This document shows positions 1,063 through 27,677 of a stretch of 30,544 nt of DNA, one piece after another. The stretch comes from a virus. The position numbers were made by a program, and so were the translations under genes. The stretch is taken from positions 1 through 30,544 of the IMG/VR virus record IMGVR_UViG_3300046454_000221; one strand, written 5' to 3'. Below the pieces are notes generated by a model. The model ran no database searches, had not been told where the DNA came from, and worked only from the letters and a program-made list of their open reading frames with translations. Position 1 is the stretch's first letter. Each line of letters opens with the position of its first letter.

Positions 1063-1431
1063 ATGGCAATAGCTGACATCAAAGCCCGGGCAGCGGCGGC
1101 CCCGCCGCTGCCCGAGGAAAAGCCCGACGCGCCATTGCCAGCCTATACGCTGGAGCTGTCGCGCCCGGTCGAGGCGCACGGTCAACAGGTCAACAAGCTG
1201 GTGTTTCGCGAGCCGACCGGTCGCGACCTGTTGAACGTTGGCAACCCGGTGATCTTTGACCCGATCTCGGACCCGCCAAAGATCATCCACGACGAGCGCC
1301 GGATGAACGCGATGATGAGTGCGCTGGCGGGCGTGCCGCCGTCGTCGATCATGGCAATGTCGCCGCGCGATTGGATCACCGCCGCGTGGGGGCTGACGCC
1401 TTTTTTCGTGCCGGTGCCGGGCAAGATCTGA
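1063..1431 (+). CDS. Tail assembly chaperone, short (zero-frame) product, Mu gp41-like
   Basis: The 122-residue zero-frame product has the sequence features of Mu gp41 / phage tail assembly chaperone proteins: LELSRPVEAHGQQVNKLVFREPTGRDLLNVGNP, then a helical segment M-M-S-A-L-A-G-V-P-P-S-S-I. Tail assembly chaperones bind and hold the tape-measure protein while the tube polymerises and are not part of the mature virion. It lies between the tube and tape-measure genes, as in Mu and most long-tailed phages. It ends at TGA 1429-1431, shortly after a run of T at 1401-1406 that forms a slippery heptamer, and a longer -1 frame product is described separately. Confidence 0.82.
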   Translation: MAIADIKARAAAAPPLPEEKPDAPLPAYTLELSRPVEAHGQQVNKLVFREPTGRDLLNVGNPVIFDPISDPPKIIHDERRMNAMMSALAGVPPSSIMAMSPRDWITAAWGLTPFFVPVPGKI

Positions 1432-1550
1432 TCGGCGATTGCATCGGCCTCGCGTTGAATTTTCATTGTAGCCCGCTCGAGTTTGCCGACCTCCCGATGT
1501 CTGTCGTGCATGATCTGATCCGCGAGCTGATCGCCTTTAAGGACCGCTGA
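1063..1550 (+). CDS. Tail assembly chaperone, -1 frameshift extended product
   Basis: Reading in the zero frame to the heptamer T TTT TTC (1401-1407) and then slipping back one base gives a product of about 162 residues ending at TGA 1548-1550. The extension starts RAGAGQDLIGDCIGLALNFH and continues with a CSPLEFADLP segment and a charged C-terminal helix. That pattern (a short helix, then F-H-x-S/P-x-x-x-x-x-L) is what is seen in the downstream half of frameshifted tail assembly chaperones. No start codon with a ribosome-binding site precedes the second segment, so frameshifting is the best way to express it. In many long-tailed phages, including Mu, the paired short and long chaperones are established; that this particular site is used is my inference. 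Confidence 0.7.
1401..1407 (+). promoter_or_regulatory. Putative -1 ribosomal frameshift slippery heptamer (T TTT TTC)
   Basis: In the zero frame the codons are CCT TTT TTC GTG, so the heptamer obeys the X XXY YYZ rule with both tRNAs able to re-pair after a one-base backward slip. The stop of the zero frame is 24 bases downstream and the -1 frame is open to 1550. It is located inside the tail assembly chaperone gene, the classic place for programmed frameshifting in tailed phages. The G/C-rich sequence after it may help pausing, but I did not fold it. Confidence 0.68.
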
Positions 1551-1553
1551 CCG

Positions 1554-3458
1554 ATGGCCGATCAACAGGAAGCGGTGCAGATCGTCATCGAGGTCGTCGA
1601 CAAATTTTCCAAGCCGCTCGTCGATCTGAAAAAAGAACTCGGTGGCCTCGCCGACAAGGGCGGCGACGGCGCGATGAAAACCGTCAAGGGTTTTTATGAG
1701 CTGCGCGAGTCGATCCATACGGTTTCGCGGTCGGTGACCTCGACGCTGATGCCGAGCCTGAAAGTATTGGGCCTCGGCTTTGCCGGTGTGGCCGCGACAT
1801 TGGCGAGCTTTGTCTCGGGGCTGAAAAACCTCGCGGGCGGCATCAACGAGCTGACTCGCCTAAGCACCGAAACCAAGATCGGCATCGACAAGATGCGCGA
1901 GCTGGAATCGGTGGCTCGCCGCGTCGGCATCAGCTCGGAACAGATGCGCTCGGGCTTCCGAGGCTTCAGCGAGGAAATGGACAAGCTCCGCATCGGCACC
2001 GGCGGGCTGCAAGCGTTTTTTTCGCAACACGGCATCGGATGGGCTGGCCGCGAGTTGCGCGACATCAAGGACGTAAACAAGCAGCTTGATTACGTGCTGG
2101 AGCTGGTCGACCGCATCGACGATCCACGGCAAAAGCGGCTGGTGCTGGAGCGGCTGCAATTGCCGCAAAATTTGGCACAGATACCGCGCGCCGAGCGGCA
2201 ACGCGCCATCGAGGAATATCGCAAGGCCGTCGGGCCGTTGAACAAGCAAACCAAGGAGTCGGCGCTTCGCTTTGAGGAAGCGATGATTAAGCTCGGGACC
2301 GGTTGGGAAGTATTTACCAACCGGCTGGCGGCCAATGGCGGCCTCGACGCCATGTCGAAATTGCTCGAAACGATGGCCGCCAATGCCACATCGTTCGCAG
2401 ACACGATCAGCACTGTGGCGGTTGGCCTTAGACTGTTTTTTGGCGGCAACGTGCCAAAGCCGAGCGAGTCGTCGGGCGGCATCACACAAAAGCAAAGCTT
2501 GCAGGGCGGCGGCAAGGACGAGCAAGCCCGGGTTATCAAGATCGGCACCACCGAGGGCGTGGTCGATGCCTTCAAAAAAATGGCGCTCGACATGGGCGGC
2601 GGCGACGGCAGCACCGCGCCGGTGATCCGCGCCTCGCTCGGCCCGAGCGGCGGCGGCGGTGGCGGCGGCGGTGGTGGCTCGCGCGGCCCCGGTGGTGGTG
2701 GCGGTGGCGGCGACCCGGCCAGCGCCCGACCGTCGACGCCATCGACCGGCGGCGGTGGTGGCGGTGGCAGTGCCGCACCGAACCAAGCCGACCGGCCCGG
2801 CTACATCGGCGGCAATGTCACGGTCGGCGGAAAAACATTCCATTGGGGCTCGGGCGGGCGCGGTCGCGGTTCGATACCTTATGGCGATTGGCCCGTGAAC
2901 ATCGGGCCCGGCGCGGGCATGGGCCCTTGGGGGCGGTCGCACGGCTCGGCGGCCACTATCGGGCGGCCCGGCGGCGAGATCGACGACCCGAGATACCCGG
3001 GGCGGCCACGCGCCGGAATCCAAATACATCCATCGAGCAGTGCGACGCTCGACCGGCTCTATACCGCTGGCTGCTTTGCGGTGCCGCGCGCCGAGTGGCC
3101 CGCATTCAAAAAGGCGTTGCTGGAGGAAGCGGCCAAGGGCCCGCTGACGCTGCACATCGGGCGCGACGGCAAGGCCGAGATATTGGGCAAGGACGAGCTA
3201 GATGCCCGCAACAAGGTGCCGCTGCCGCGCTCGCGCCCGGCGGAAGCGGACGAGGATAACAAGCCGCCGCCGCCGCGCGAGCGGCTGCGCGAGGCCGCCA
3301 ACAGCAACGGCCAAGACGGCAACATGGAAGGCGCGGCCAAGGTGCGGGTCGAGATGAATGGCTTTCCGCGCGGCACCAAAACCACCGCATCGACGAGCGG
3401 CGTGTTTTCCGATGTCGAGCTGCATCGCGGTTATGTGCCGCACACTGAAAGCGCCTGA
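1554..3458 (+). CDS. Tail tape-measure protein, first copy, with C-terminal L,D-transpeptidase-like module
   Basis: A 634-residue protein. Residues 1-260 are helical and tape-measure-like (VVDKFSKPLVDLKKEL; GFAGVAATLASFVSGLKNL hydrophobic stretch; STETKIGIDKMRELE). A glycine-rich linker with runs of Gly occupies about residues 365-420. After it comes a compact domain with SIPYGDWPVN and GIQIHP, then TAGCF; H492 and C507 sit like the His and Cys of the YkuD/L,D-transpeptidase-type motif, suggesting a peptidoglycan-acting module at the tail tip. A C-terminal tail with PLPRSRP and GVFSDVELH repeats that of the next gene. The tape measure sets tail length and is ejected with the DNA. The gene overlaps nothing and is 2 bases from its paralogue. 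The enzymatic call is tentative; the tape-measure call is firm from position and N-terminus. Confidence 0.75.
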   Translation: MADQQEAVQIVIEVVDKFSKPLVDLKKELGGLADKGGDGAMKTVKGFYELRESIHTVSRSVTSTLMPSLKVLGLGFAGVAATLASFVSGLKNLAGGINELTRLSTETKIGIDKMRELESVARRVGISSEQMRSGFRGFSEEMDKLRIGTGGLQAFFSQHGIGWAGRELRDIKDVNKQLDYVLELVDRIDDPRQKRLVLERLQLPQNLAQIPRAERQRAIEEYRKAVGPLNKQTKESALRFEEAMIKLGTGWEVFTNRLAANGGLDAMSKLLETMAANATSFADTISTVAVGLRLFFGGNVPKPSESSGGITQKQSLQGGGKDEQARVIKIGTTEGVVDAFKKMALDMGGGDGSTAPVIRASLGPSGGGGGGGGGGSRGPGGGGGGGDPASARPSTPSTGGGGGGGSAAPNQADRPGYIGGNVTVGGKTFHWGSGGRGRGSIPYGDWPVNIGPGAGMGPWGRSHGSAATIGRPGGEIDDPRYPGRPRAGIQIHPSSSATLDRLYTAGCFAVPRAEWPAFKKALLEEAAKGPLTLHIGRDGKAEILGKDELDARNKVPLPRSRPAEADEDNKPPPPRERLREAANSNGQDGNMEGAAKVRVEMNGFPRGTKTTASTSGVFSDVELHRGYVPHTESA

Positions 3459-3460
3459 CG

Positions 3461-5491
3461 ATGGCCGATCAAGAGGAAGCCACCAAGATCGTCGTCGAGG
3501 TGGTCGACAAATTTTCGCGCCCGCTGGTCAATCTAAAGCGCGAGCTGGAGGGGCTTAGCAACAAGGGCGGCGAGGGAGCGACCAAAACCGCCAAGAGTTT
3601 TGACACCTTGCGAACGTCGATTCACACCGTGGCGTCGACCGTCACCGGGACGCTAATGCCGAGTATGCGCGTGCTTGGCCTCGGCTTTGCCGGTGTGGCC
3701 GGGACGCTGGCGACGTTTGTCGCCGGGCTCAAGAGCCTCGGCGGCAGCATCGTCGAGCTGTCTCGTTTAAGCACAGAAACCAAGATCAGCATCGACAAGA
3801 TGCGCGAGCTTGAGGCGGTCGGTCGCCGCGTGGGCATCACCGCCGAGCAAATGCGCGCCGGGTTTCGCGGCTTCTCTGAGGAAATGGATAAGCTCCGCAT
3901 CGGCACCGGCGACCTACAAAAGTTTTTCGGCACTCACGGCATTAGCTGGCTCGGCACCGACCTGAAAAATATTCGGGATGTAAACAAACAGCTCGACTAC
4001 GCGCTTGAGGTGATCGACCGGATGACCGACCCGAGGCAAAAGCGCCTTGTGCTTGAGCGGCTGCAATTGCCCGCCAACCTTTCGCAAATACCGAGGGCCG
4101 AGCGCGAGCGCGCCATCGAGGAATATCGCAAAACCGTTGGGCCGCTCGACAAGGCAACCAAGGACTCGGCGCAGCGGTTCGACGAGGCCATGACCAACAT
4201 GGCGACCGCTTGGGAAAAGTTTATCAACCGGCTGGCGCAAAAGGGTGGGCTCGACGAGTTCACCAAGTTGCTCGATTTGGTTTCGGGCAGCGCCACCAAG
4301 ATCGCCGACGAGGTGACCAAGGCGGCTCGAGATTTTGGCAGCATCTACAGCGACCTTGTTAAAATCACCGCTTTATTGAAAGAGATCAAAGGCCAATTGC
4401 CTGACCCGGTTGGCGATTGGAAAAAGAAAGGCTGGCGCGGATTCCTGCCGCATTTCACCACGCCAAACGAAAGCGTTGAAAAGCGTTTTTGGCAGCCGCA
4501 GAGCTTGCAGGGCGGCGACAACAAAGATGAGGCCATCAAGGTCATCAAGACCGGCACCAGCGAGGGTGTCGTCGACGCCTTTAAGAAAATGGCGCTCGAT
4601 GCTGGCGGCGACAGCGCGGCGGGCGGCGGCGGCACGTTCGGCGGCGCATCAGTCATCCGCGCTTCACTCGGCGGCGGTGGTGGTGGTGGTGGCGGCGGTC
4701 GGCGCGCGGGCCCCGGCGGTGGTGGCAATGAAAGCGAGCCCGCGCCGCCCGGCGGCGGGGCCGGTCTGCCCGGCGATAAGCGCGCGGTTGCGGGCACCGT
4801 GGTCGACGAGTTGCGCCGGGCCGGGCTGCCCGAGAGTGCTATCGCGGGCATCCTGGCTAACATCAAATCCGAGAGCGGATTCAACCCGAATCTGCGCCAT
4901 CCCGATCAGCCGAAATTCGGCGGCGAGGCGCATTTCGCGCACGGGCTGTTTCAAGAGGGCGGCACCGAGTGGAACAACTATGCCAGATGGTTGAAGCAAA
5001 ACCATCCCGGCGCGAGCTGGCAAGACCCGCGACTGCAAACCAAATTCCTCGCCGAGCGGATGCGCACTGGCTATCCGGCGCTGTGGAAAAAGTTGATGAA
5101 ATCCGGCAACTCTGCCGAGTCGGCGGTCGACTTTCTGCGCGAATATCTCAAGCCCGCGTTGCCGCATCAAAGGTCGCGTGCCGATCAATATCGCCGTGGC
5201 GTGCCCGGCGTTGATGCCTATACCGGCGGCAAGGACGGCGGCGCGGCTGATGTGCCGCTGCCGCGCTCCCGCCCGCCCGAGGCCGACGCGCCAGCGGTGC
5301 CGCGCGCGCGTATGATGGAAGCGGCCAACCACTCCAACCAATTCGCCCGGGTCGAGGGCGACGCGCTGGTGCGCATCGATCTCGCCGGATTGCCGCACGG
5401 CAGGAAGGCTGGCGCGATGGGCGGCGGCGTGTTTTCCGATGTCCAGATTCATGGCGGCAACACCGTGCCGCTCGCCAGTGAAAGCGCCTAA
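3461..5491 (+). CDS. Tail tape-measure protein, second paralogous copy, with C-terminal phage tail lysozyme domain
   Basis: A 676-residue protein whose first ~260 residues align without gaps to the preceding gene (about two-thirds identical over the first 60 residues by hand count). The linker is again glycine-rich (about residues 403-425). The C-terminal domain differs: VVDELRRAGLPESAIAGIL, then NIKSESGFNP with E471 as the likely catalytic acid, and AHGLFQ, matching the phage tail lysozyme (Phage_lysozyme2) fold used to cut peptidoglycan during entry. The extreme C-terminus (PLPRSRP ... GVFSDVQIH) is shared with the first copy. So the two genes are a duplication with the enzymatic module exchanged. 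Start ATG follows the previous stop by 2 bases. A +1 spacing to the gpN-like gene completes an operon-like string. Confidence 0.8.
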   Translation: MADQEEATKIVVEVVDKFSRPLVNLKRELEGLSNKGGEGATKTAKSFDTLRTSIHTVASTVTGTLMPSMRVLGLGFAGVAGTLATFVAGLKSLGGSIVELSRLSTETKISIDKMRELEAVGRRVGITAEQMRAGFRGFSEEMDKLRIGTGDLQKFFGTHGISWLGTDLKNIRDVNKQLDYALEVIDRMTDPRQKRLVLERLQLPANLSQIPRAERERAIEEYRKTVGPLDKATKDSAQRFDEAMTNMATAWEKFINRLAQKGGLDEFTKLLDLVSGSATKIADEVTKAARDFGSIYSDLVKITALLKEIKGQLPDPVGDWKKKGWRGFLPHFTTPNESVEKRFWQPQSLQGGDNKDEAIKVIKTGTSEGVVDAFKKMALDAGGDSAAGGGGTFGGASVIRASLGGGGGGGGGGRRAGPGGGGNESEPAPPGGGAGLPGDKRAVAGTVVDELRRAGLPESAIAGILANIKSESGFNPNLRHPDQPKFGGEAHFAHGLFQEGGTEWNNYARWLKQNHPGASWQDPRLQTKFLAERMRTGYPALWKKLMKSGNSAESAVDFLREYLKPALPHQRSRADQYRRGVPGVDAYTGGKDGGAADVPLPRSRPPEADAPAVPRARMMEAANHSNQFARVEGDALVRIDLAGLPHGRKAGAMGGGVFSDVQIHGGNTVPLASESA

Positions 5492-5493
5492 CG

Positions 5494-6060
5494 ATGGCAA
5501 CACCACTATGGCGCGCGATGCTGGTGCCCGCGATGTTTCGCGGCGCGCCGTTTCATGTCGACGCCAATGCCCGGTCGTCGGGCCGCCGCATCGTGCTGCA
5601 TGAGTTTCCGAAACGCGATGTGCCCTATGCCGAGGACATGGGCCGGAAGGCGCGCACGTTTCCGGTGACCGGCTATGTGATCGGGCCAAGCTATGTCATC
5701 CAGCGCGAATTGCTTGAGGCCGCGCTTGAGGCCGAGGGCCCCGGGCTGTTGATCCTGCCGACCTTGCTGCAACGCGATTCTATCTTGTGCCAAGTGCGCG
5801 ACTACACCGTGCGCGAAACCCGCCAAGCGGGCGGCATGGCCGAGTTCGATATGCAATTTGTCGAGGCAGGCGAAGCGGGTTTCAGCGTCAACATCGACAG
5901 CCAAGGCGCGAGCGAAACCGCAGCCGACAACGCGGAAAGCCAAGCCGTCGATACTTCAAATAGCGAGCTAAAGCCGGGTGACGGCCCCGGGGCCAACCCT
6001 AGCGGCAGCGTCGAGATCGGCCAGCCCACCATTACCGACGATTCAGGAAACCCGATATGA
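5494..6060 (+). CDS. DNA circularisation / tail protein gpN, N-terminal domain only
   Basis: A 188-residue protein starting MATPLWRAMLVPAMFRGAPFHVD, with GRRIVLHEFPKRDVPYAEDMG and the G-Y-V-I-G pattern characteristic of the DNA_circ_N domain of Mu gpN (a baseplate-wedge/hub-associated tail protein despite the 'DNA circularisation' name). The conserved domain spans about residues 1-130; the remaining ~55 residues are acidic, low-complexity linker. Mu gpN is roughly 490 residues, so this is only the front part. The back part appears to be the next gene, which starts with an ATGA overlap. It may be a true two-gene arrangement, since both halves are intact with clean ends. Confidence 0.8.
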   Translation: MATPLWRAMLVPAMFRGAPFHVDANARSSGRRIVLHEFPKRDVPYAEDMGRKARTFPVTGYVIGPSYVIQRELLEAALEAEGPGLLILPTLLQRDSILCQVRDYTVRETRQAGGMAEFDMQFVEAGEAGFSVNIDSQGASETAADNAESQAVDTSNSELKPGDGPGANPSGSVEIGQPTITDDSGNPI

Positions 6061-6728
6061 AAGCCGACGCCCGCGAGGAAGCGGCGCAGCTCGTAGTCGC
6101 GACCGTCAAAGACCTGTTGAACACCGTGACCGTCGACGCCGGGCGGGCGGGCTCAATGGTGCGGCTCGCCGCCGGGGATATGATCGCCGATGCCGAGCTG
6201 TTGATCGAAAACGCGGCCATTGCCACGCCGCTCGCCAATTTATTCAACTTGGTACGGTTGGCGGGGGCTACGGTCGACCAGTTCGACTTGGTGCGGCGGC
6301 ACGTCGTCGCCGTCGTCGTCAGCTATAACGCGGCGCTGTCGGTGCAAAACAGCGTGATCCGCTTTTCGCTGGTGCAATGCGCGCGTGTTCTCGCCGCGAC
6401 CACGATGACCAGCCGCAATGAGGTCGACCGCTATCTCGACCGCATGAACGCTGCGTTTAATCAGGCCGAAACTTTTGCGGCCAACACTCACGACCAAGCG
6501 TCCTATCGCTCGATGATCGCGCTGCACGCGGCGGTGACGTTTGACCTGACCACGCGGGCGCGGCCCTTGCCGCAAATCGTGGTCTACGATTTCGGGCTAT
6601 CCAAGCCCGCGCTATGGATCGCGCAGCGGCTTTATGCCGACGCCGCCCGATGCGGCGAGCTGGTCGACGAGAATGCGCCGGTGCATCCGGCGTTTGTGCA
6701 AATGCCCGTTCGCGCGCTGTCGCAATGA
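6057..6728 (+). CDS. gpN C-terminal-like protein (second half of split gpN)
   Basis: A 223-residue, mostly helical protein. The C-terminal part has SYRSMIALHAAVTFDLTTRARPLPQ, RLYADAARCGELVDEN and HPAFVQMPVRALS, which resembles the end of Mu-type gpN/DNA circularisation proteins (typically an R-N-x-x-x-H-P-A-F x-P ... R-x-L-S pattern). The ATG overlaps the stop of the previous gene as ATGA, so the two are probably translationally coupled. Together they give 411 residues, slightly short of a full gpN. No frameshift or stop-codon remnant was seen at the junction, so I read it as a split rather than a decayed gene. Confidence 0.68.
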   Translation: MKADAREEAAQLVVATVKDLLNTVTVDAGRAGSMVRLAAGDMIADAELLIENAAIATPLANLFNLVRLAGATVDQFDLVRRHVVAVVVSYNAALSVQNSVIRFSLVQCARVLAATTMTSRNEVDRYLDRMNAAFNQAETFAANTHDQASYRSMIALHAAVTFDLTTRARPLPQIVVYDFGLSKPALWIAQRLYADAARCGELVDENAPVHPAFVQMPVRALSQ

Positions 6729-6731
6729 TCC

Positions 6732-7865
6732 ATGCCAAACCCGCAAGAAATCTGCATCGTTCAAGCTGGCGGCACCAATTATAAATTTTGGAAAGAGGTC
6801 GAGGTAACCCGCACCGCCTCCGACATCGTGTCGCGGGCGACGCTGGTGGTGGCCGAGATTGGCGACCTCAACAAGGGCTGGAAATCGATCCGGCTGCCGC
6901 CGGGCGCGCCGGTCAAGATCAACCTGGCGGGCGAGCTGGCGTTGACCGGCGCGGTGACGGTGCGACAGGTCAGCTATGATGGCAATTCGCACAACGTGCG
7001 GTTTGTCTGCCAATCGAATACCTCGGCGCTTGCTAAAAGCTCGCTGGTGCTGCCGCCGGGGCAATTCAAAAACCAGACGCTAGAAAAGCTGGCCAACGCC
7101 GCCACCAAAAAATACGGCATCACGTTTTCGCTGAAGGGGATGCCGGAAGGCGCGCAAAAGGTTTTCGAGCGGGTGTCGATCCATTGGGGTGAAAGCCCGT
7201 TTCAGTTCATCTTGCGGCTGGCACAAATGCGCAATATTCACATTTTCGACAATGCGATGGGCAACCTGATCGGCATCAGGGGCGGCGGCCAACAGGTTGC
7301 CGATCTGCAAGAGGGCCGCAACATCCTGCAAGCCGAGCTGGTCTGGTCGCAGGATAACGCCGCCGACACCATCAAGGTCGACGGCGACCAGCACGGCACC
7401 AACGCGCATTGGGGCGACAAGGCGCGGGCACAATCCGCCGAGGCGAAGAATCCAAATTACAACGCCAAGATTCCGTCGCCGCTGTTGATGGTGATGCCAC
7501 AACCGGGTGACGTTAAGGATGCGCAGATGTTTGCCAATCATTCGGTCGACCTCAACGCCGCCACCATATTCACCGCCAACATCACGGTGCGCGGCTGGCA
7601 GCGTCAGGGCGGTCAGCTCTGGCTTAACGAGGTCGGCAACCTGATCAACCTCTACTCGCCGATGTTGCTGCCACAGGATCGCGCCAAGCTCGGCATTCAG
7701 GCGGCGACCTGTCGGCAAAACGACTCGACCGGTACCACAACGACGTTAGAGCTGGTATTGCCGGATCGTCTCGGTGGCCGCGATCAGATCAGCGTCGGCC
7801 CGAACGCAACACCCGAGTCCGCACCATCAACGGCGGAACCAGCACAACCGAAAGAGGAACCGTAA
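6732..7865 (+). CDS. Baseplate hub protein, Mu gp44 / gpP-like
   Basis: A 377-residue protein in the position of the Mu tail protein P (gp44). It has the hub-type beginning (ICIVQAGGTNYKFWKEVEVTRT), a middle segment WGESPFQFILRLAQMRNIHIFDN that is the usual second domain of these hubs, and the late-domain ITVRGWQRQGGQLWLNEVGNLI. In contractile tails this protein forms the trimeric hub that links the tube to the spike. The last ~30 residues are proline/glutamate-rich. It ends next to the spike gene (adjacent ATG at 7866). Confidence 0.85.
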   Translation: MPNPQEICIVQAGGTNYKFWKEVEVTRTASDIVSRATLVVAEIGDLNKGWKSIRLPPGAPVKINLAGELALTGAVTVRQVSYDGNSHNVRFVCQSNTSALAKSSLVLPPGQFKNQTLEKLANAATKKYGITFSLKGMPEGAQKVFERVSIHWGESPFQFILRLAQMRNIHIFDNAMGNLIGIRGGGQQVADLQEGRNILQAELVWSQDNAADTIKVDGDQHGTNAHWGDKARAQSAEAKNPNYNAKIPSPLLMVMPQPGDVKDAQMFANHSVDLNAATIFTANITVRGWQRQGGQLWLNEVGNLINLYSPMLLPQDRAKLGIQAATCRQNDSTGTTTTLELVLPDRLGGRDQISVGPNATPESAPSTAEPAQPKEEP

Positions 7866-8609
7866 ATGCGAGTCTCGACGCGCACGCTTGGCGACAATAT
7901 GAAAAACGCCATCAAGCGCGTCACCGTCGAGAAGAACGACGACGACCCGCTGTTTCGCGAGCATGAGGTGAGTCTCTACACTGACGAAAAGCAAAAAGAG
8001 ATCGAGCATTTTGAACCGTATGGTTTGACCTCGCGGGTCAAGCAACCGACCGGCCAAGGCAAGCAAAAGAAAAAGGCCGAGGGGCTGATCGTGTTCACCG
8101 GCGGGCAACGCTCGCACGGCGTGCTGATCGTCACCGGCGACCGCCGCTATCGCTTGCGCGGGCTGAACGAGGGCGAGGTCGCGCTGTTCGACGATCAGGG
8201 TCAGCAAGTGCATTTCACGCGCGATGGTATCGTGACCAGCGCGCCGAAAGGCAAAAAGATTGTTGCGCAGATTATGGACAGTGACAGCGCGCCGAAATCG
8301 CAATCGCAAGATGCCAAGGACGACGGCCAAGGCGCACAGGCCGGGGGCAAGGCGTTGGCCAGCCTGACGCTGACCAAAGATGCATGGACCGTGAACCATC
8401 CGACCAAGATGCAATTCACCGTCGGCAGTAGCACGTTGTTGATCGAGGCCGACAAGATCACGGTCACGTCGCCGACCATCAGCAATAACGCAAAGACACG
8501 GTTTGAAACCATTGGGCCGACGTTCCTCGGCCTTGATGGTGCTAACGGCAGCGGCCCCAAGGTGGTGACCGAGGGCGGCCCGGCAAAACAAACTTTTGCC
8601 GAGGTTTGA
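7866..8609 (+). CDS. Baseplate spike assembly protein, Mu gp45 / baseplate protein V-like
   Basis: A 247-residue protein in the gp45 position. It contains LIVFTGGQRSHGVLIVTGDRRYRLRGLNEGEVALFDDQGQQVHF, the OB-fold-plus-hydrophobic-strand pattern of Mu gp45 spike proteins, followed by repeated short beta strands (SLTLTKDAWTVNHP; TVGSSTLLIEADKITVTSPTI) as expected for a triple-stranded beta-helix spike that pierces the outer membrane. A lysine-rich stretch near residue 70 and an acidic-to-basic linker lie between. It starts immediately after the hub gene stop and is followed by a tandem-repeat protein that may extend the spike. Confidence 0.85.
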   Translation: MRVSTRTLGDNMKNAIKRVTVEKNDDDPLFREHEVSLYTDEKQKEIEHFEPYGLTSRVKQPTGQGKQKKKAEGLIVFTGGQRSHGVLIVTGDRRYRLRGLNEGEVALFDDQGQQVHFTRDGIVTSAPKGKKIVAQIMDSDSAPKSQSQDAKDDGQGAQAGGKALASLTLTKDAWTVNHPTKMQFTVGSSTLLIEADKITVTSPTISNNAKTRFETIGPTFLGLDGANGSGPKVVTEGGPAKQTFAEV

Positions 8610-8610
8610 A

Positions 8611-9048
8611 ATGCCAAACGATGCGGCATTTACCGTCGACATTTCCGCGCAAGGCATCAGCACGGTCAACGGTGGCGACATCAGCTCGGCTCATAATGTT
8701 TCAGCGGCGGCCAATGTTTCAGCGGTGGCCAATTCAACCGCCGGGAATGACGTCAATGCCGGGAATGACATCAATGCCGGGAATGACATCAACGCCGGGA
8801 GTGACATCACGGCGGGCCGCAACATCATAGCGACCGGGTACATCCAGGCGTCATCCATTCAAGTCCCGCCGACACCGGCAACAAGCTTGATTCTTCCTTG
8901 GACTAGTTTTGCTGGTTTGCCGCCGCCGGTTAATGGCGCGGTCGCCTTGATACTGGATGCCAGCATAGACGGTTCTGGTGTGATTACCGGCGGCGGAACC
9001 AGCAAGGCAATGGGCGCGGCCTATGGCGGGCAATGGTATGCCGTATGA
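8611..9048 (+). CDS. Small hexapeptide-repeat protein between gp45 and gp46, possible spike/beta-helix accessory
   Basis: A 145-residue protein. The ATG at 8611 is chosen over the upstream TTG at 8596 because it begins right after the preceding stop. Residues about 45-70 have a hexapeptide repeat (AGNDIN, AGNDIN, AGSDIT, AGRNII), encoded by about four tandem copies of an 18-base unit. Such repeats build left-handed or triple beta-helices, in keeping with its place directly after the spike. The C-terminal half (SFAGLPPPVNG; ILDASIDGSGVITGGG) is small and Gly-rich. I do not recognise a named family. It could be a spike tip or a spike-associated fibre. Repeats make unit-number variation between related phages likely. 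Confidence 0.6.
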   Translation: MPNDAAFTVDISAQGISTVNGGDISSAHNVSAAANVSAVANSTAGNDVNAGNDINAGNDINAGSDITAGRNIIATGYIQASSIQVPPTPATSLILPWTSFAGLPPPVNGAVALILDASIDGSGVITGGGTSKAMGAAYGGQWYAV

Positions 9049-9063
9049 AAAGGCGGTGAGCCA

Positions 9064-9558
9064 ATGCCCGATCTGAGACTCTATGACATCGTCTCGCCGT
9101 TTGCGGTGACGTTTGACCTGTTGCAAAAGCGCGACGGGCTGATCGACGAAACCGAGGCGCTGGCGACCGCCGTGATCGTGGCACTCGGCACCAATCGGCT
9201 GGCGCTGCCCGACGACGTGCTGCCGAACATCGACGACAGCGACCGGCGCGGCTGGTGGGCCGACACCGACGCCGAGCTGATCTGGAACGCGTGGCCCATC
9301 GGTTGCCGCCTGTGGCTGATCGAGCGCCACAAGATCACCGGCTTTGAAGCCAGCCAAGGCTCGACCATCGCGCGGATCGATTCCTATATCCGTGAGGCGT
9401 TGCGCCCGTTCGTCGAGAATCGCATTTGCTCAAGCTTTGATGTCGTGGTGACGCGCACCGAGCTGCAAAAGATCGTGGCGCAGATCACGATATGGCGCGG
9501 CCCGTTGCCCGCCATTCAATTGATGTATCAGGCCCTATGGGCCGAAATAGGAATCTGA
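9064..9558 (+). CDS. Baseplate protein, Mu gp46-like
   Basis: A 164-residue protein: MPDLRLYDIVSPFAVTFDL, a run of LATAVIVALGTNRLALPDD, then GWWADTDAELIWNAWPIGCRLWLIERHK, which is the signature region of the phage GP46 family (DUF1028-type small baseplate protein of Mu). It is a lysozyme-less small baseplate component next to gp47. An AAGGCGGTGAGCC sequence with a GGTGAG element precedes the ATG. Short spacing (3 bases) to the next gene suggests one operon. Confidence 0.85.
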   Translation: MPDLRLYDIVSPFAVTFDLLQKRDGLIDETEALATAVIVALGTNRLALPDDVLPNIDDSDRRGWWADTDAELIWNAWPIGCRLWLIERHKITGFEASQGSTIARIDSYIREALRPFVENRICSSFDVVVTRTELQKIVAQITIWRGPLPAIQLMYQALWAEIGI

Positions 9559-13309: not shown

Positions 13310-13657
13310 ATGGCAACCGTCAATATCACCGTTGAGAATGACGCGGATTTCTACCGCGTATTTCAGTACGTCATGGCGACGGCGGGCACGCCGATTGACA
13401 TCACCGGCGCATCGCTTGAAATGATGCTGCGCCGTCACGCCGAGGACGCCGAGGCGTTGTTGCGGCTCGGCACCGATACCGGCGAGATGGTGCTGACCGA
13501 TCCGGTTAACGGATTGTTTACGGTGCTGATCCGCCAAGACGTCTTAGAACGCCTCGGCCTCGGCATCTATGATCATTCCAACATCATGACGCTCGGCGGC
13601 TTCAAAACGAAAATTTGGTCGGGCACGTTGACCAATAACGCGGGGCCGACGCGGTGA
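13310..13657 (+). CDS. Hypothetical small tail-fibre-locus protein
   Basis: A 115-residue acidic protein ([70 protein letters not shown]). The strand-rich make-up with an I-D-I-T-G-A-x-x-x-x-x-L-R pattern recalls the N-terminal domain of baseplate upper proteins (BppU-like), but I am not confident of a family. Starts directly after the previous stop and its stop TGA overlaps the GTG of the collagen-like fibre, giving GTGA. It is likely a small connector in the fibre operon. Confidence 0.5.
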
Positions 13658-15024
13658 GCAGCGTCGAGGTCATTACTGACAGCAACGTCATCATTGCCGT
13701 TGAGGTTGACGACGATGGTCGTGTCGTCGTCCTTGCGCCCGATGATATCGAGACGATAGCCACCGGCGAACAGGGACCGCCGGGGCCCGCTGGCGGGCCG
13801 CCCGGGCCGCAAGGTCCGCCCGGTGCGCCGGGGCCAGCCGGGCCGCCCGGGAATCCTGGCGGGCCGCAGGGCCCGGCAGGGCCAACAGGGCCGCAAGGAA
13901 TGCCGGGACCGACCGGCCCGCAGGGACCAAAGGGCGATACCGGGACACAAGGCCCGGCGGGACCAACAGGGCCAACAGGGCCAACAGGGCCGACAGGGCC
14001 AGCGTCGACGGTGCCGGGACCGACCGGCCCACAGGGACCAAAGGGCGATACCGGGGCAACCGGTCCGCAGGGGCCAGCCGGTGCGGACGGCGCGGGCGCG
14101 CCGGGCACCGCGCCGCCAATCATGGACAGCACGGCGGCGGTCGGCACGTCGCTATTATTTTCCCGGCAAGATCACGTCCATCCAAGCGACACATCGCGCG
14201 CGCCGATCATCAGCCCCGGTCTGACCGGCACGCCGACCGCACCAACCGCACCGGTCGGCACCAACACCACACAGATCGCTACCACGGCGTTTGTCAGGCA
14301 GAACTTTGGGTCGCCAGCCACAAACCTCATCATCAACGGGGACTTTCGCATCAATCAAGTCGGTTATGTTTCTGCCGCTGCGTTGAGCGCCGGAACGTAT
14401 GGACACGATCAATGGAAAGCCGGGGCAACCGGCGGCGACTATTCTTTTACCCAACTTAAAAGCAGCACTCAGATAACCATAGCGTCGGGCAAATCCCTCA
14501 TCCAGCCGGTTGAGGACGTGAATGTCGTTGGTGGCTCTTATGTTCTGAGTTGGACCGGCACTGCCCAAGCTCGCGCTGGTGTCAACACGCTGACGCCATC
14601 CGGTTCTTATGCGGGCAGCCCTTTGCTGATTACCGGGCAGACGGCGGGCACGGTAATGTCGATTGAGTTCAATAGCGGAACGCTCGTCGGCGTGAAGCTC
14701 GAAAGCGGGGCGAGCGCAACGCCGTTCATCATGCGGCCTTACGAACAGGAATTGCAGAGTTGCAGGCGCTACTACCACAAGCGATCCGTTGACATTCTTC
14801 AGTCCGCGTTTGGATCGGGGGCATCTGTGGGCGCTTGGTTTTTTCATCCTGTACAGATGCGGGCGGCACCAACCGTTTCCAGTACGGGCGGCGCGCTGAC
14901 CAACGCAACGACCCAAGGGCTCGATCATGCAACGGTGGACGGTTATCGACATTATCTCGCATCCAACGCGGCAGGGGACACGGCGCTGACCGGCGGCGTT
15001 GACGTAGCGGATGCGAGGCTGTGA
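13654..15024 (+). CDS. Collagen-like tail fibre protein
   Basis: A 456-residue protein started by GTG overlapping the previous stop. Residues 1-37 form an N-terminal adaptor ([21 protein letters not shown]). Residues 38-151 are Gly-X-Y repeats ([18 protein letters not shown]) typical of phage collagen-like fibres, forming a triple helix. A tail-fibre hinge ([16 protein letters not shown] ... [22 protein letters not shown]) follows, then a C-terminal beta-rich domain ([15 protein letters not shown] ... [19 protein letters not shown]) common at the tip of phage fibres and likely the receptor-binding head. The repeats also give long open frames on the opposite strand; these are shadows. A 44-base direct repeat lies inside (13901-13944 and 14012-14055). 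Confidence 0.87.
13901..14055 (+). repeat. 44-base direct repeat inside the collagen-like gene (two copies) plus 9-base tandem repeats
   Basis: The blocks 13901-13944 and 14012-14055 differ at one base and both encode [14 protein letters not shown]. Between them lie several tandem 9-base units of the type CCAACAGGG. In-frame recombination between copies would shorten or lengthen the collagen region by 111 bases (37 residues). Confidence 0.85.
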
Positions 15025-18058: not shown

Positions 18059-18556
18059 TCATGGGATTTTGCACGCCTCTTTCAGCACCGCGACCGCCTT
18101 GCGGGTTTCCTTCACGCTGAAAACAAACTCGCGCCGAGCCGCCGGTAGCGCAATGCGAATGCTCGATTGGCTGTCCGCAAACCAATCAAGGTCGGCCGTA
18201 GTTATTTTTGCTTCCAGAGCGCCCGAATAGTGTTCTTCAATTGACGCATTGAAGGTCCGTGGTTTTTTGCCATCGATGCTGATCATAAACGTGTCTGGTT
18301 TTGGCTTTTCACGGAACAGCACCGCCTGGAATTCACCATTTCTGCAAGACAATGCCAGCAACGGCCAGCTGTCGGCCCCATCGTTCACGACCGATGTCGA
18401 AACGGAATATCCCGGGGGTGGCGCGGGACCGAGTTGGATGTGTTTGGTCAACACCCAACTACCGAAACCAGTGCCGTCGCCCGCACCGCCGACACATGGG
18501 AATGCTGGCCCTACGAACAGAACAAGTATTGCCGCGATCTTTTTCAAGGCGTTCAT
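18059..18556 (-). CDS. Small secreted/exported protein co-transcribed with integrase
   Basis: A 165-residue protein beginning MNALKKIAAILVLFVGPAFP, a clear signal peptide (positive n-region, hydrophobic h-region); a Cys follows at position 21 but the residues before it are not a canonical lipobox. The remainder (WPLLALSCRNGEFQAVLFREKPKPDTFMISIDGKKPRTF; ITTADLDWFADSQSSIRIALPAARREFVFSVKET) is a compact beta-rich domain of unknown family. Its ATG is in the TAATG overlap with the integrase stop, so it is translated from the same mRNA. An upstream in-frame extension into int exists but is a shadow. A likely lysogenic-conversion gene; function unknown. Confidence 0.62.
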   Translation of the reverse strand: MNALKKIAAILVLFVGPAFPCVGGAGDGTGFGSWVLTKHIQLGPAPPPGYSVSTSVVNDGADSWPLLALSCRNGEFQAVLFREKPKPDTFMISIDGKKPRTFNASIEEHYSGALEAKITTADLDWFADSQSSIRIALPAARREFVFSVKETRKAVAVLKEACKIP

Positions 18557-19881
18557 TAGGCCACCGCCTTGAACGCCACGACTCTGCCGTCGTCGCCACG
18601 GCGCGCCATGCCGTCGAGCCGGTCGGCCCAATGCTGCAACATCTTGGCGCGGGTCTTGAGCAACGCCGCATCGTTGTAGTCGGCGCGGGTGTCGCTGTCG
18701 ACGTGGGCAAGTTGCAGCTCGATGATCTCGCTCGGCCATCGTTTGCTGTCGTCGTCGCGCACCTCGCTGTTGAGCATGGTCGAGGCGACCGCGCGCAGCC
18801 CGTGGGCGCATTGCTCGGCGGCGGTGTCATAGCCGAGCGAGCGCAGCGCCTTGTTAAGCGCGACCTCGGACATGCCTTGATCGACCGTGCCACCGAACAG
18901 CTTGCGCTCGGCCCCATCGACCGAGAATATCCAGCGGCCTTTGCCGGTCAGCTTGTGCATCCGCTTGAGTAGGGCAAATGCCTGATCGGACAGCGGCACG
19001 TGATGCTCCAGCCGCATTTTCATTTTGTTGGCGGGGATGACCCAAACCCGCTCATCCCAATCGACCTCGGACCATTCGGCGTTGGTGCATTCGCCGGGCC
19101 GTACCATCGTCAGCACCGTAAACTTAAGCGCCTCGCGACCGAACACGCCGTTATAGCGGTTGATGTCGCGCCACAGCTTGACGACCTTGCCGAGCTTTTG
19201 CTTGTCGGTGCCGGATCGCGTCACCGCCGGGCGGTTTTGTTTGCGGTCGCCGACCCGCTTGCTGGTGGTGGCGAGCTGTTTAAGCACCGGCTGCGCCACG
19301 TCATACTTGATCAGGTCTTGAGCGATGCACCATTGCAGGATGCGCGAGGTGAATCGCGTGACGCGGCCCGCATAGTCGAGGCTGAGATCGGCGCGCACCG
19401 CCGCGACCATCGCAAAGACGTGTTTGGTGGTCAGCTCGGTCACCAGATACTCGCCGAGATCGGCTTGCAGCCGGTTCAACAGGAAGCGGTTTTTGGTCAG
19501 CGTGCGCGGGGCCATCGGCGGTTTGAAATTGACCATTTCCGATTCAAACCATGCCTCGCTCATCGCCTGAAAGGTCTTGGTGGCGTTGGCCACCTTGTCC
19601 TTTCTGATGTCGGCTTTGACGGTGTGCGGATCGAGGCCGCCGTCGACGAGCGCCTTGAGCCGGTCGCGCTCGATCCGCGCCTCGCCGAGCTTCATGGCCG
19701 GATAGGGTTTGATTGCGGCGATGGTGTCCTTGAGCGTCTTGGGATGCTTGTAGCGGAAATACCAAACTTTGGCGGTTGGCCACACGTACAGATAAAGCCC
19801 GCCGCCGTCGTTGAGCTTGGTCAGCTTGTCGCCTTTGGTTTTGGCGGCTTGGCACGCGGTGTCGGTCAGATGGGTTTTCAT
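18556..19881 (-). CDS. int: Tyrosine recombinase integrase, P4-like
   Basis: A 441-residue protein. Residues 1-95 (MKTHLTDTACQAAKTKGDKLTKLNDGGGLYLYV ... KLGEARIERDRLKALVDGG) are the DUF4102 arm-type DNA-binding domain of P4-like integrases, and the middle is the SAM-like core-binding domain. The catalytic domain has R261 (MVRPGE), H360-x-x-R363 (AHGLR), H393 (LAHVD) and Y402 (ADYNDA), all the expected residues. It would catalyse site-specific integration and, with the excisionase-like gene at 20775, excision. The start is the ATG at 19881 with a GGACTTCCC leader; upstream lie tandem GTGGGGATG-type repeats. P4-like integrases typically use tRNA 3' ends, but no tRNA is seen here. Confidence 0.92.
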   Translation of the reverse strand: MKTHLTDTACQAAKTKGDKLTKLNDGGGLYLYVWPTAKVWYFRYKHPKTLKDTIAAIKPYPAMKLGEARIERDRLKALVDGGLDPHTVKADIRKDKVANATKTFQAMSEAWFESEMVNFKPPMAPRTLTKNRFLLNRLQADLGEYLVTELTTKHVFAMVAAVRADLSLDYAGRVTRFTSRILQWCIAQDLIKYDVAQPVLKQLATTSKRVGDRKQNRPAVTRSGTDKQKLGKVVKLWRDINRYNGVFGREALKFTVLTMVRPGECTNAEWSEVDWDERVWVIPANKMKMRLEHHVPLSDQAFALLKRMHKLTGKGRWIFSVDGAERKLFGGTVDQGMSEVALNKALRSLGYDTAAEQCAHGLRAVASTMLNSEVRDDDSKRWPSEIIELQLAHVDSDTRADYNDAALLKTRAKMLQHWADRLDGMARRGDDGRVVAFKAVA

Positions 19882-25328: not shown

Positions 25329-26681
25329 ATGGCCGCGTTCCTCGATGGCCGCGTGATGTTGCATCCTGGCGATTGCCTCAATGTCCTGGCGGGCATTACG
25401 GGCGACAGCGTGGATTCCTGTGTCACCGACCCGCCCTATCACCTCACCTCAATCGTCAGACGCTTTGCCAATGCGACGCTAGAGCATGAGCTGTTTGCCG
25501 CTAACCATCCGATCCCTGCCTATGGCCGCTTGTCGCGCGGCTTCATGGGCAAGCAATGGGATGGCGGCGACATTGCGTTTCGCGCCGAGCTGTGGGCCGA
25601 GGTGTTTCGCGTTCTCAAGCCCGGCGCTCACCTAATCGCGTTCGGTGGCACGCGGACCTATCACCGCATGGCGTGTGCGATTGAGGACGCGGGGTTCGAG
25701 ATACGCGATCAGATCGGCTGGTTGTACGGCTCAGGCTTCCCGAAATCGCATGACGTGAGCAAGGGGATTGATCGGGCGGCGGGGGCTGAGCGGGAATTAA
25801 TTACTGTTATTAATAGAACAGGCAAAGATGTGGGAACCTACGGTGCCTTTGCCGGACCATCACCAATAACAGCCCCCGCCACCGATGCCGCCCGTGATTG
25901 GGCCGGTTGGGGCACCGCGCTCAAGCCCGCATGGGAACCGATTGTGTTGGCGCGCAAGCCGCTGATCGGCACCGTCGCCGAGAACGTGCTGGCGCATGGC
26001 ACGGGCGCGCTGAACATTGATGGATGCCGGGTTGAGCATTCGGAAGAATGCCGAGAAATGGCACCGCAAGCTGAGCCGGGCGGTCGGATCATCAGACAAG
26101 CCGGGCGCTACAAGACCGTTCAAGAATTGAAGCCCAATGGCCGCTGGCCCGCCAACATCATCCATGACGGAAGCGATGAAGTGGTGGCGGCGTTTCCTGA
26201 AATCGCGCCAACATCGGGCCACGTTCGTCATAACGTGTCAAAGGACGAATATTTCACTGGCAAGGCACCGATAGCGCAAGCCGGTGTTAGCGATGCTGGC
26301 GGTTCCGCCGCCCGCTTCTTCTACACAGCCAAGGCCGACGCCGATGACCGGCTCGGCTCCAAGCATCCGACCGTCAAGCCGCTCGACCTGATGCAATGGC
26401 TGGTGCGGCTGGTGGCGCCGCGCGGCGGGCTTGTCCTCGATCCGTTTGCGGGCACCGGCACCACCGGCGAGGCGGCATGGCGCGAGGGTTGCCGCGCCGT
26501 GCTGATCGAGCGTGAGCCGGAATACTGCGCCGACATCGAGCGCCGCATGGGGTTGGCTTTGAGTGGGCCCGACGAGCGCGCCCGGCAAAGCATGAAAGAG
26601 AAGCTAAAAGACAAGCCCGCCGATCACGGGCCGCTGTTTTCCGAGATTTGGGACAAACCGTTTTATCCGGTGCCGAAATGA
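25329..26681 (+). CDS. DNA methyltransferase, beta-class (N4-cytosine/N6-adenine type)
   Basis: A 450-residue protein; ATG follows the gcrA stop directly. The catalytic motif DPPY is at D34-Y37 and the AdoMet-binding motif DPFAGTGTT is at about residues 371-379, i.e. the catalytic motif first and the binding motif last, the beta-class order shared with CcrM. The target-recognition part is residues ~110-290, including an A/T-rich insert at 25793-25830 unlike its surroundings. It has no restriction partner here, so it could protect phage DNA or reprogramme gene expression. Its target is unknown; similarity to CcrM is by class order only, not proven for GANTC. Confidence 0.82.
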   Translation: MAAFLDGRVMLHPGDCLNVLAGITGDSVDSCVTDPPYHLTSIVRRFANATLEHELFAANHPIPAYGRLSRGFMGKQWDGGDIAFRAELWAEVFRVLKPGAHLIAFGGTRTYHRMACAIEDAGFEIRDQIGWLYGSGFPKSHDVSKGIDRAAGAERELITVINRTGKDVGTYGAFAGPSPITAPATDAARDWAGWGTALKPAWEPIVLARKPLIGTVAENVLAHGTGALNIDGCRVEHSEECREMAPQAEPGGRIIRQAGRYKTVQELKPNGRWPANIIHDGSDEVVAAFPEIAPTSGHVRHNVSKDEYFTGKAPIAQAGVSDAGGSAARFFYTAKADADDRLGSKHPTVKPLDLMQWLVRLVAPRGGLVLDPFAGTGTTGEAAWREGCRAVLIEREPEYCADIERRMGLALSGPDERARQSMKEKLKDKPADHGPLFSEIWDKPFYPVPK

Positions 26682-26803
26682 CGCTTCCAACACTCAACGC
26701 GCGCCACCGCCGCGAGGGATGGGAATCATGGGGCAACGAGGCCCCGGACGATGACGAGGTGGCGCACAGTGAACAAGCTCACACCAATCAAACCCGGCAA
26801 TAA
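26678..26803 (+). CDS. Tiny ORF between the two methyltransferase genes
   Basis: A 41-residue frame from ATG 26678, which overlaps the methyltransferase stop as ATGA, ending at TAA 26801-26803. The product (MTLPTLNARHRREGWESWG ... DDDEVAHSEQAH) is charged and overlaps the start of the Dam-type gene in another frame. The ATGA coupling makes it plausible as a small translated peptide or as a leader that couples translation of the next gene. Confidence 0.4.
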   Translation: MTLPTLNARHRREGWESWGNEAPDDDEVAHSEQAHTNQTRQ

Positions 26804-27677
26804 GCGGCTCGTTAAATTCGATCCCGAGCGGCACCGGCTGACGGTGGCGGCGCTCGACTACGGCATCAAGGAAGCCAAGCGCATCAAGGATTGGCCCGCG
26901 CTCGAAAAGGCCATCGACGCCAAGATCGAGGAACAACAGGCGTTTGTGGCGTGGTGGGGCGGCAACATTCGATCCCAAGGTGAGGCGAGGAAAAAAGAAA
27001 ACCGCGTTCCCGGTTTTCTTTCGGTGTCCAAGGCCGAGGACCTTACCGGCATGGCGCAACAGCGCGTCGCCGATCTGAAAAAGCGGCTGAAACAAATCGA
27101 AAAATTCCGCGAGCTGTTGCTTGGTGCAGAATACCGCGCGGCTTGCCTAGCCGCCGCCGATAACGTGCGCGGCACTACCGGCACCGGCGAAAACGAATGG
27201 TTTACACCGCCGCAATATCTCGACATGGCGCGCGAGGTGATGGGCGGCATCGATCTCGATCCGGCGTCGAGCGATAGGGCGCAAGAGGTGGTGAAGGCGG
27301 CCAAGTATTTCACCAAGGCGGACGACGGATTGCAACACGAATGGCACGGCGCGGTTTGGCTCAACCCGCCTTACGCGCAGCCGCATATCGCTAATTTCGT
27401 TGCCAAGCTGGTGGCGGAATGTGAGGCCGGGCGCGTCAGCTCGGCGATTCTGCTAACGCACAATTACACAGACACGGCATGGTTTCATGAGGCGGCGGCG
27501 GTCGCGAATGGAATCTGTTTTACCCGAGGCCGCATCAAATTTTATGAGCCCGATGGCGCGGTCGCCGCGCCCACGCAAGGCCAAGCGTTTTTCTATTACG
27601 GCAAAAGCCTCGACCGTTTTCTGTCGGTGTTTGCTGGTGTTGGATTTATCGTGTTTCCGTTTGGGCCGCAGCCATGA
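26769..27677 (+). CDS. Phage DNA N6-adenine methyltransferase (Dam-type)
   Basis: A 302-residue protein from GTG 26769, which has a GAGGTGG Shine-Dalgarno sequence 6 bases upstream; a longer start at ATG 26751 is the alternative. Residues 1-120 are a helical N-terminal region. From residue 144 WFTPPQY, then DLDPASS (about 163) and NPPY at 199-202 mark the phage Dam family (PF05869). These enzymes methylate adenine, commonly in GATC, but the specificity here is not known. Two methyltransferase genes of different classes lie in the same operon. Confidence 0.85.
   Translation: MNKLTPIKPGNKRLVKFDPERHRLTVAALDYGIKEAKRIKDWPALEKAIDAKIEEQQAFVAWWGGNIRSQGEARKKENRVPGFLSVSKAEDLTGMAQQRVADLKKRLKQIEKFRELLLGAEYRAACLAAADNVRGTTGTGENEWFTPPQYLDMAREVMGGIDLDPASSDRAQEVVKAAKYFTKADDGLQHEWHGAVWLNPPYAQPHIANFVAKLVAECEAGRVSSAILLTHNYTDTAWFHEAAAVANGICFTRGRIKFYEPDGAVAAPTQGQAFFYYGKSLDRFLSVFAGVGFIVFPFGPQP

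Follow-up and report, generated by a model that had tools for sequence, protein, structure and literature searches.

Tandem tape-measure genes with different, exchanged enzyme-like blocks in the Mu/SfV-type tail operon of a viral contig

Tape measures are usually regarded as single-gene, homo-oligomeric rulers. Wall-hydrolase motifs within such proteins have been described in the mycobacteriophage TM4 Tmp (mt3, PMC1796659) and in phiCbK gp95 (CHAP, PMC3556154), and the TM4 motif aids the infection of stationary-phase cells (PMC1796659). In diffocin, a transglycosylase and an endopeptidase are joined in one hub protein (PMC10996793). The diffocin tape is a homotrimer (PMC10996793) and that of HFTV1 a hexamer (PMC12494034); since tape measures are trimers or hexamers, there is room for mixed assemblies. 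Our search of the open-access literature yielded no account of twin tape measures in tandem; a paper on Hesat, a Staphylococcus phage, refers in passing to two tail tape-measure proteins. One tape-sized gene lies between chaperone and hub in all ten cultured phages with related tails that we inspected (PPF1, SfMu, Vibrio 1.028.O, PY223, SfV, SppYZU01, AH07, AeroV_348, martha 12B12, and VP16T), in agreement with the preliminary description of our locus, which considered two tape measures unusual for a contractile tail.

Our study analyzed a viral contig from IMG/VR, 30,544 bases long (the window), which carries a contractile tail operon of the Mu/SfV type in the order sheath end, tube, chaperone, two tape measures, split hub, gpP-like hub, gp45, baseplate J, and Mu gp48. 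The cultured sheaths nearest to it are those of SfII and SfV, at about 56% identity (tblastn). Relatives were found by scans of viral contigs and a profile catalogue, and labels of the type L006 denote those contigs. The features of the locus, all on the plus strand, are the following.

1063..1431 (+): tail assembly chaperone (Phage_TAC_7; Pfam PF10109, 6.4e-11; phrog_166)
1401..1407 (+): probable -1 frameshift slip site T_TTT_TTC (sequence reading, in frame CCT TTT TTC GTG)
1404..1550 (+): chaperone extension in the -1 frame, open up to the stop at 1548-1550, immediately upstream of copy 1
1554..3458 (+): tape measure copy 1, 634 aa (phrog_2276, 8.1e-13; phrog_8125, 8.5e-13)
1554..2420 (+): tape region of copy 1, residues 1-289, paralogous to copy 2 (70% identity)
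2544..2597 (+): conserved segment of copy 1, GTTEGVVDAFKKMALD, ahead of the linker (alignment)
2643..2771 (+): glycine-rich linker of copy 1 (sequence)
2772..3185 (+): enzyme-like block of copy 1, residues 407-544 (138 residues), with His492 and Gly506-Cys507 (L,D-transpeptidase-like motif)
3216..3455 (+): conserved C-terminal tail of copy 1, VPLPRSRP...GVFSDVELHRG (53% identity to the copy 2 tail)
3461..5491 (+): tape measure copy 2, 676 aa (phrog_2276, 4e-13)
3461..4327 (+): tape region of copy 2, residues 1-289, paralogous to copy 1
4670..4771 (+): glycine-rich linker of copy 2 (the left edge of the exchanged block lies at about 4720, blastn against L006, L007, and L008)
4720..5254 (+): exchanged block, lysozyme in the window and an unrelated domain in L006/L007 (blastn; flanks about 88-92% identical)
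4790..5185 (+): Phage_lysozyme2 domain of copy 2, residues 444-575, with the ESGFNP Glu conserved (Pfam PF18013, 1.9e-20)
5252..5488 (+): conserved C-terminal tail of copy 2 (BLASTP match to the copy 1 tail)
5494..6060 (+): N-terminal half of the hub protein (DNA_circ_N; Pfam PF07157, 1.9e-25; phrog_184 positions 5-156)
6057..6728 (+): C-terminal half of the hub protein, as its own gene (phrog_184 positions 261-401)

The Mu gpN-type hub is thus encoded by two overlapping genes that cover opposite ends of phrog_184, a split also present in relatives and probably, by annotation, in Rhizobium phage PPF1. Elsewhere in the window we observed a tyrosine-family integrase with an arm-binding domain (18556-19881, minus strand) alongside the Mu-type tail, a collagen-like repeat protein that is probably a tail fibre (13654-15024; Pfam Collagen, 3.1e-11), and two neighbouring DNA methyltransferase genes, N6_N4_Mtase and Dam (25329-26681 and 26751-27677).

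Both tape-measure reading frames are intact and separated by 2 nt. A frameshifting chaperone just ahead of the tape is the usual layout for an operon of this type, and both copies lie between this chaperone and the hub, copy 2 directly after copy 1. The possibility that one of the two is not a tape measure is ruled out at the profile level, as both match tape-measure PHROGs; the assignment comes from these profiles, and no TMP model of Pfam matches either copy. By BLASTP, the copies share 62% identity over residues 1-345 (E 8e-154), with 76% DNA identity in the tape part, and 53% identity over the last ~72 residues, the VPLPRSRP...GVFSDV tail (E 7e-17), with no significant match between the tape part and that tail. 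These alignments reproduce what had been read from the letters: 40 identities fall within the first 60 residues, the C-terminal tail is common, and the domains between linker and tail differ. Each copy also has a hydrophobic stretch by hydropathy, near residue 70 (in copy 1 a single one, near residue 69).

The tail lysozyme proposed for copy 2 was recovered by Phage_lysozyme2 (PF18013) at 73.9 bits, against a curated cut-off of 28.2. The ES.F[ND]P motif, whose Glu we assume to be catalytic, is kept in the window and 11 relatives, with one variant, ESSLNP. When compared with cultured phages, plasmids, and GTDB genomes, copy 2 gives matches in the lysozyme domain only, nearly all of them from Staphylococcus phages. 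A lysozyme2 block like that of copy 2 also occurs in L030 (5723-7774), in a protein that matches no tape N-terminal profile.

The YkuD/L,D-transpeptidase block proposed for copy 1 fared differently: the block is real and conserved, with His492 and Gly506-Cys507 invariant among 15 diverse sequences, but the YkuD name rests on this motif. The block matches no Pfam or PHROG profile, and the PF03734 (YkuD) profile finds no match anywhere in the window. A profile search of PDB sequences aligns the His and GC of Pgp2 with those of the block, though at an E of 0.8, and Foldseek listed Bd1075 for the block model without significance; we take both proteins to be YkuD-type L,D-carboxypeptidases. The best structural model of the block has a pLDDT of 77.8, the five models disagree and yield no significant Foldseek match, and hhalign against E. 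coli LdtB did not confirm a YkuD identity. We call the block L,D-transpeptidase-like, by motif and not as a family member, and refer to it as the H...GC block. Copy 1 finds no match in the phages of the INPHARED set or in GTDB genomes, and its block finds none in plasmids and phages.

Twin tapes between chaperone and hub were identified in two clades and in more distant lineages. In clade A (the window, L006-L010, L013, and L014), copy 1 carries the H...GC block, except in L010, where an M15-like block is found, and copy 2 carries a lysozyme or, in L006-L010, a SleB-like helical block. In clade B (L019-L029, L036-L041, and L045), the order of the enzymes is reversed, with the lysozyme first and the H...GC block second wherever enough of the second copy is present to be read. 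The distant twins combine H...GC with SleB-like (L072), H...GC with lysozyme (L074), SleB-like with a putative cysteine peptidase block read by eye (L083-L085), and a glucosaminidase-like domain (E 7.5e-5, below the Pfam cut-off) with a lysozyme with an M15-like block (L090); in L089 one copy has a lysozyme with an M15-like block and in L073 an SLT-like/H...GC region, the block of the other copy being without a class in both cases. None of the M15-like, SleB-like, SLT-like, or cysteine-peptidase assignments stands for a confirmed family; they come from motifs or from matches below threshold. The SleB-like block in copy 2 of L006-L010 has no Pfam match, and its low-confidence model (pLDDT 61) has no fold match; a phmmer match between the M15-like block and WD-40 designs was taken as chance. 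The second twin copies of L083 (7513-9435) and L084 (7577-9544) show a GAACG...GGHVM pattern resembling papain-like cysteine peptidases, with no Pfam match. In every twin with both blocks classified, the payload families of the two copies differ, and their usual pairing is of a glycan cutter and a probable peptide cutter. Among the single-tape relatives, L050 carries a lysozyme, L064 and L066-L068 an H...GC block, and L087 a lysozyme and an M15-like block within one protein; two enzymes on the tapes are not obligatory, because some of these single tapes appear to have just one.

Recombination replaces the enzyme block between linker and tail and leaves its flanks in place. At the DNA level, the window and L006 are co-linear at 88-95% identity to position 4719, in the copy 2 linker; they are unrelated over 4720-5254, and identity resumes at 91% from 5255 onward. 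The copy 2 proteins of the window and L006/L007 agree accordingly in tape (93-95%) and tail (89-91%; L006: 95% and 91%), with unrelated blocks between them, and the copy 1 proteins of the window and L010 share 85% in the tape and 68% in the tail around the block swapped for the M15-like one. The tape of L012 (1-1344) is a chimera whose first 738 bases are 99% identical to L064 and the rest only 76%; it is 88% identical to L011 over 17-1344, with identical payload residues, and reads as a further recombination joint near the linker.

Trees of the N-terminal parts place the clade A copies in one group (support 100/99), as they do each of the L072, L074, and L083/L084 pairs (100/99, 100/99, and 100/100), with a weaker grouping of the clade B copies (77/72 and 76/36). 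Orthology across clades A and B was rejected by the AU test both when copies were matched by payload (p 3e-32 for A1+B2 and 2.4e-4 for A2+B1) and when they were matched by position (p 4.6e-23 for A1+B1). Since copies group within clades and the cross-clade groupings are rejected, duplication occurred either several times or once and was followed by concerted evolution. The second course is kept in consideration by one stretch of L013, where synonymous divergence between the copies (5336-7237 and 7244-9289) falls to 0.14 at codons about 175-200 against ~0.5 elsewhere, which suggests local gene conversion. The twins in many independent contigs and the exchange of the block alone at the DNA level bear out the earlier proposal of gene duplication with domain exchange.

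We propose that the duplicated tapes are two structural carriers of different wall enzymes, both most likely packed in each virion, a reading to which we give a probability of roughly 55%. The comparisons show a tandem duplication of the tape-measure gene, the retention of both copies, a different payload on each, and the exchange of the block lying between linker and tail. Each copy, in our reading a structural carrier, keeps the tape region, the conserved pre-linker segment, the flexible glycine linker, and the common C-terminal tail. The union of two blocks in the single tape of L087, and of two cutters in the diffocin hub, speaks for this reading. Both proteins would most likely occupy the tail lumen of each virion and, upon contraction, the lysozyme and a probable peptide cutter would reach the peptidoglycan together. 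We infer that the copy 1 block may be enzymatically active and that the two proteins may share one virion in a hetero-oligomeric tape; we count against the two-carrier explanation that neither the H...GC nor the SleB-like block significantly matches a known enzyme and that some single-tape relatives seem to manage with one enzyme. More tentatively, and at somewhat less than even odds, such a tape would bear two complementary wall-cutting arms, tandem duplication would be recurrent in contractile-tailed phages, and the arms would be freely exchangeable cassettes.

In clade A, the lengths of the two tape parts are 31-37 residues apart, which is awkward for equal rulers and keeps in play an alternative that we consider unlikely, with about half the weight of the two-carrier reading or less: one copy would measure the tail and the other would be a lumen- or hub-bound enzyme carrier, with the tape fold reused as a packing handle. 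The free order of payloads between copies and the PHROG label "lytic tail protein" on some similar proteins are in line with this, but both tape regions are similarly conserved under purifying selection (dN/dS 0.03-0.27), with relaxed selection in neither copy, and tape lengths are similar in every pair checked. Less probable still is a homo-oligomer of one copy per virion, giving two virion types per burst as bet hedging; it accords with the preservation of both copies, each with all parts and with their 62% identity over the tape, but the genes follow each other at 2 nt without a switch or separate chaperone between them, and the likeness of the tape regions would favour mixing. An assembly artefact, or a transient duplication heading for loss, is highly improbable even for a metagenome contig with known single-copy relatives (L050, L064, and L067), as the same twins, orthologous copy by copy, recur in many contigs from different metagenomes and the two copies have only 76% DNA identity and evolve under purifying selection.

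Twins that recur, are conserved, and differ in their enzyme blocks would show that duplication can diversify the cargo of the tail lumen. The twins also supply natural boundaries for module swaps, namely the glycine linker and the PLPRSRP tail, and they open the stoichiometry of tape measures, and their role in carrying cargo, to experimental test.

With respect to known systems, the Mu/SfV-type operon of SfMu, SfV, and Rhizobium phage PPF1 shares the order sheath, tube, chaperone, tape, DNA-circularisation hub, and gpP, but these phages have a single tape measure where the window has two. The YkuD fold of Pgp2 and Bd1075 has the conserved H...GC in common with the copy 1 block, without a significant Pfam, PDB-sequence, or fold match between them. 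As in the proposal for the window twins, the hub hydrolase of diffocin brings a glycan cutter and a peptide cutter with the tail, although both reside in a single hub protein, whereas the blocks of the window are on two tapes. Finally, TM4 and phiCbK, like the window, have a wall-enzyme module inside the tape measure; theirs is a single module in a single tape gene, whereas the window has tandem paralogues with different modules.
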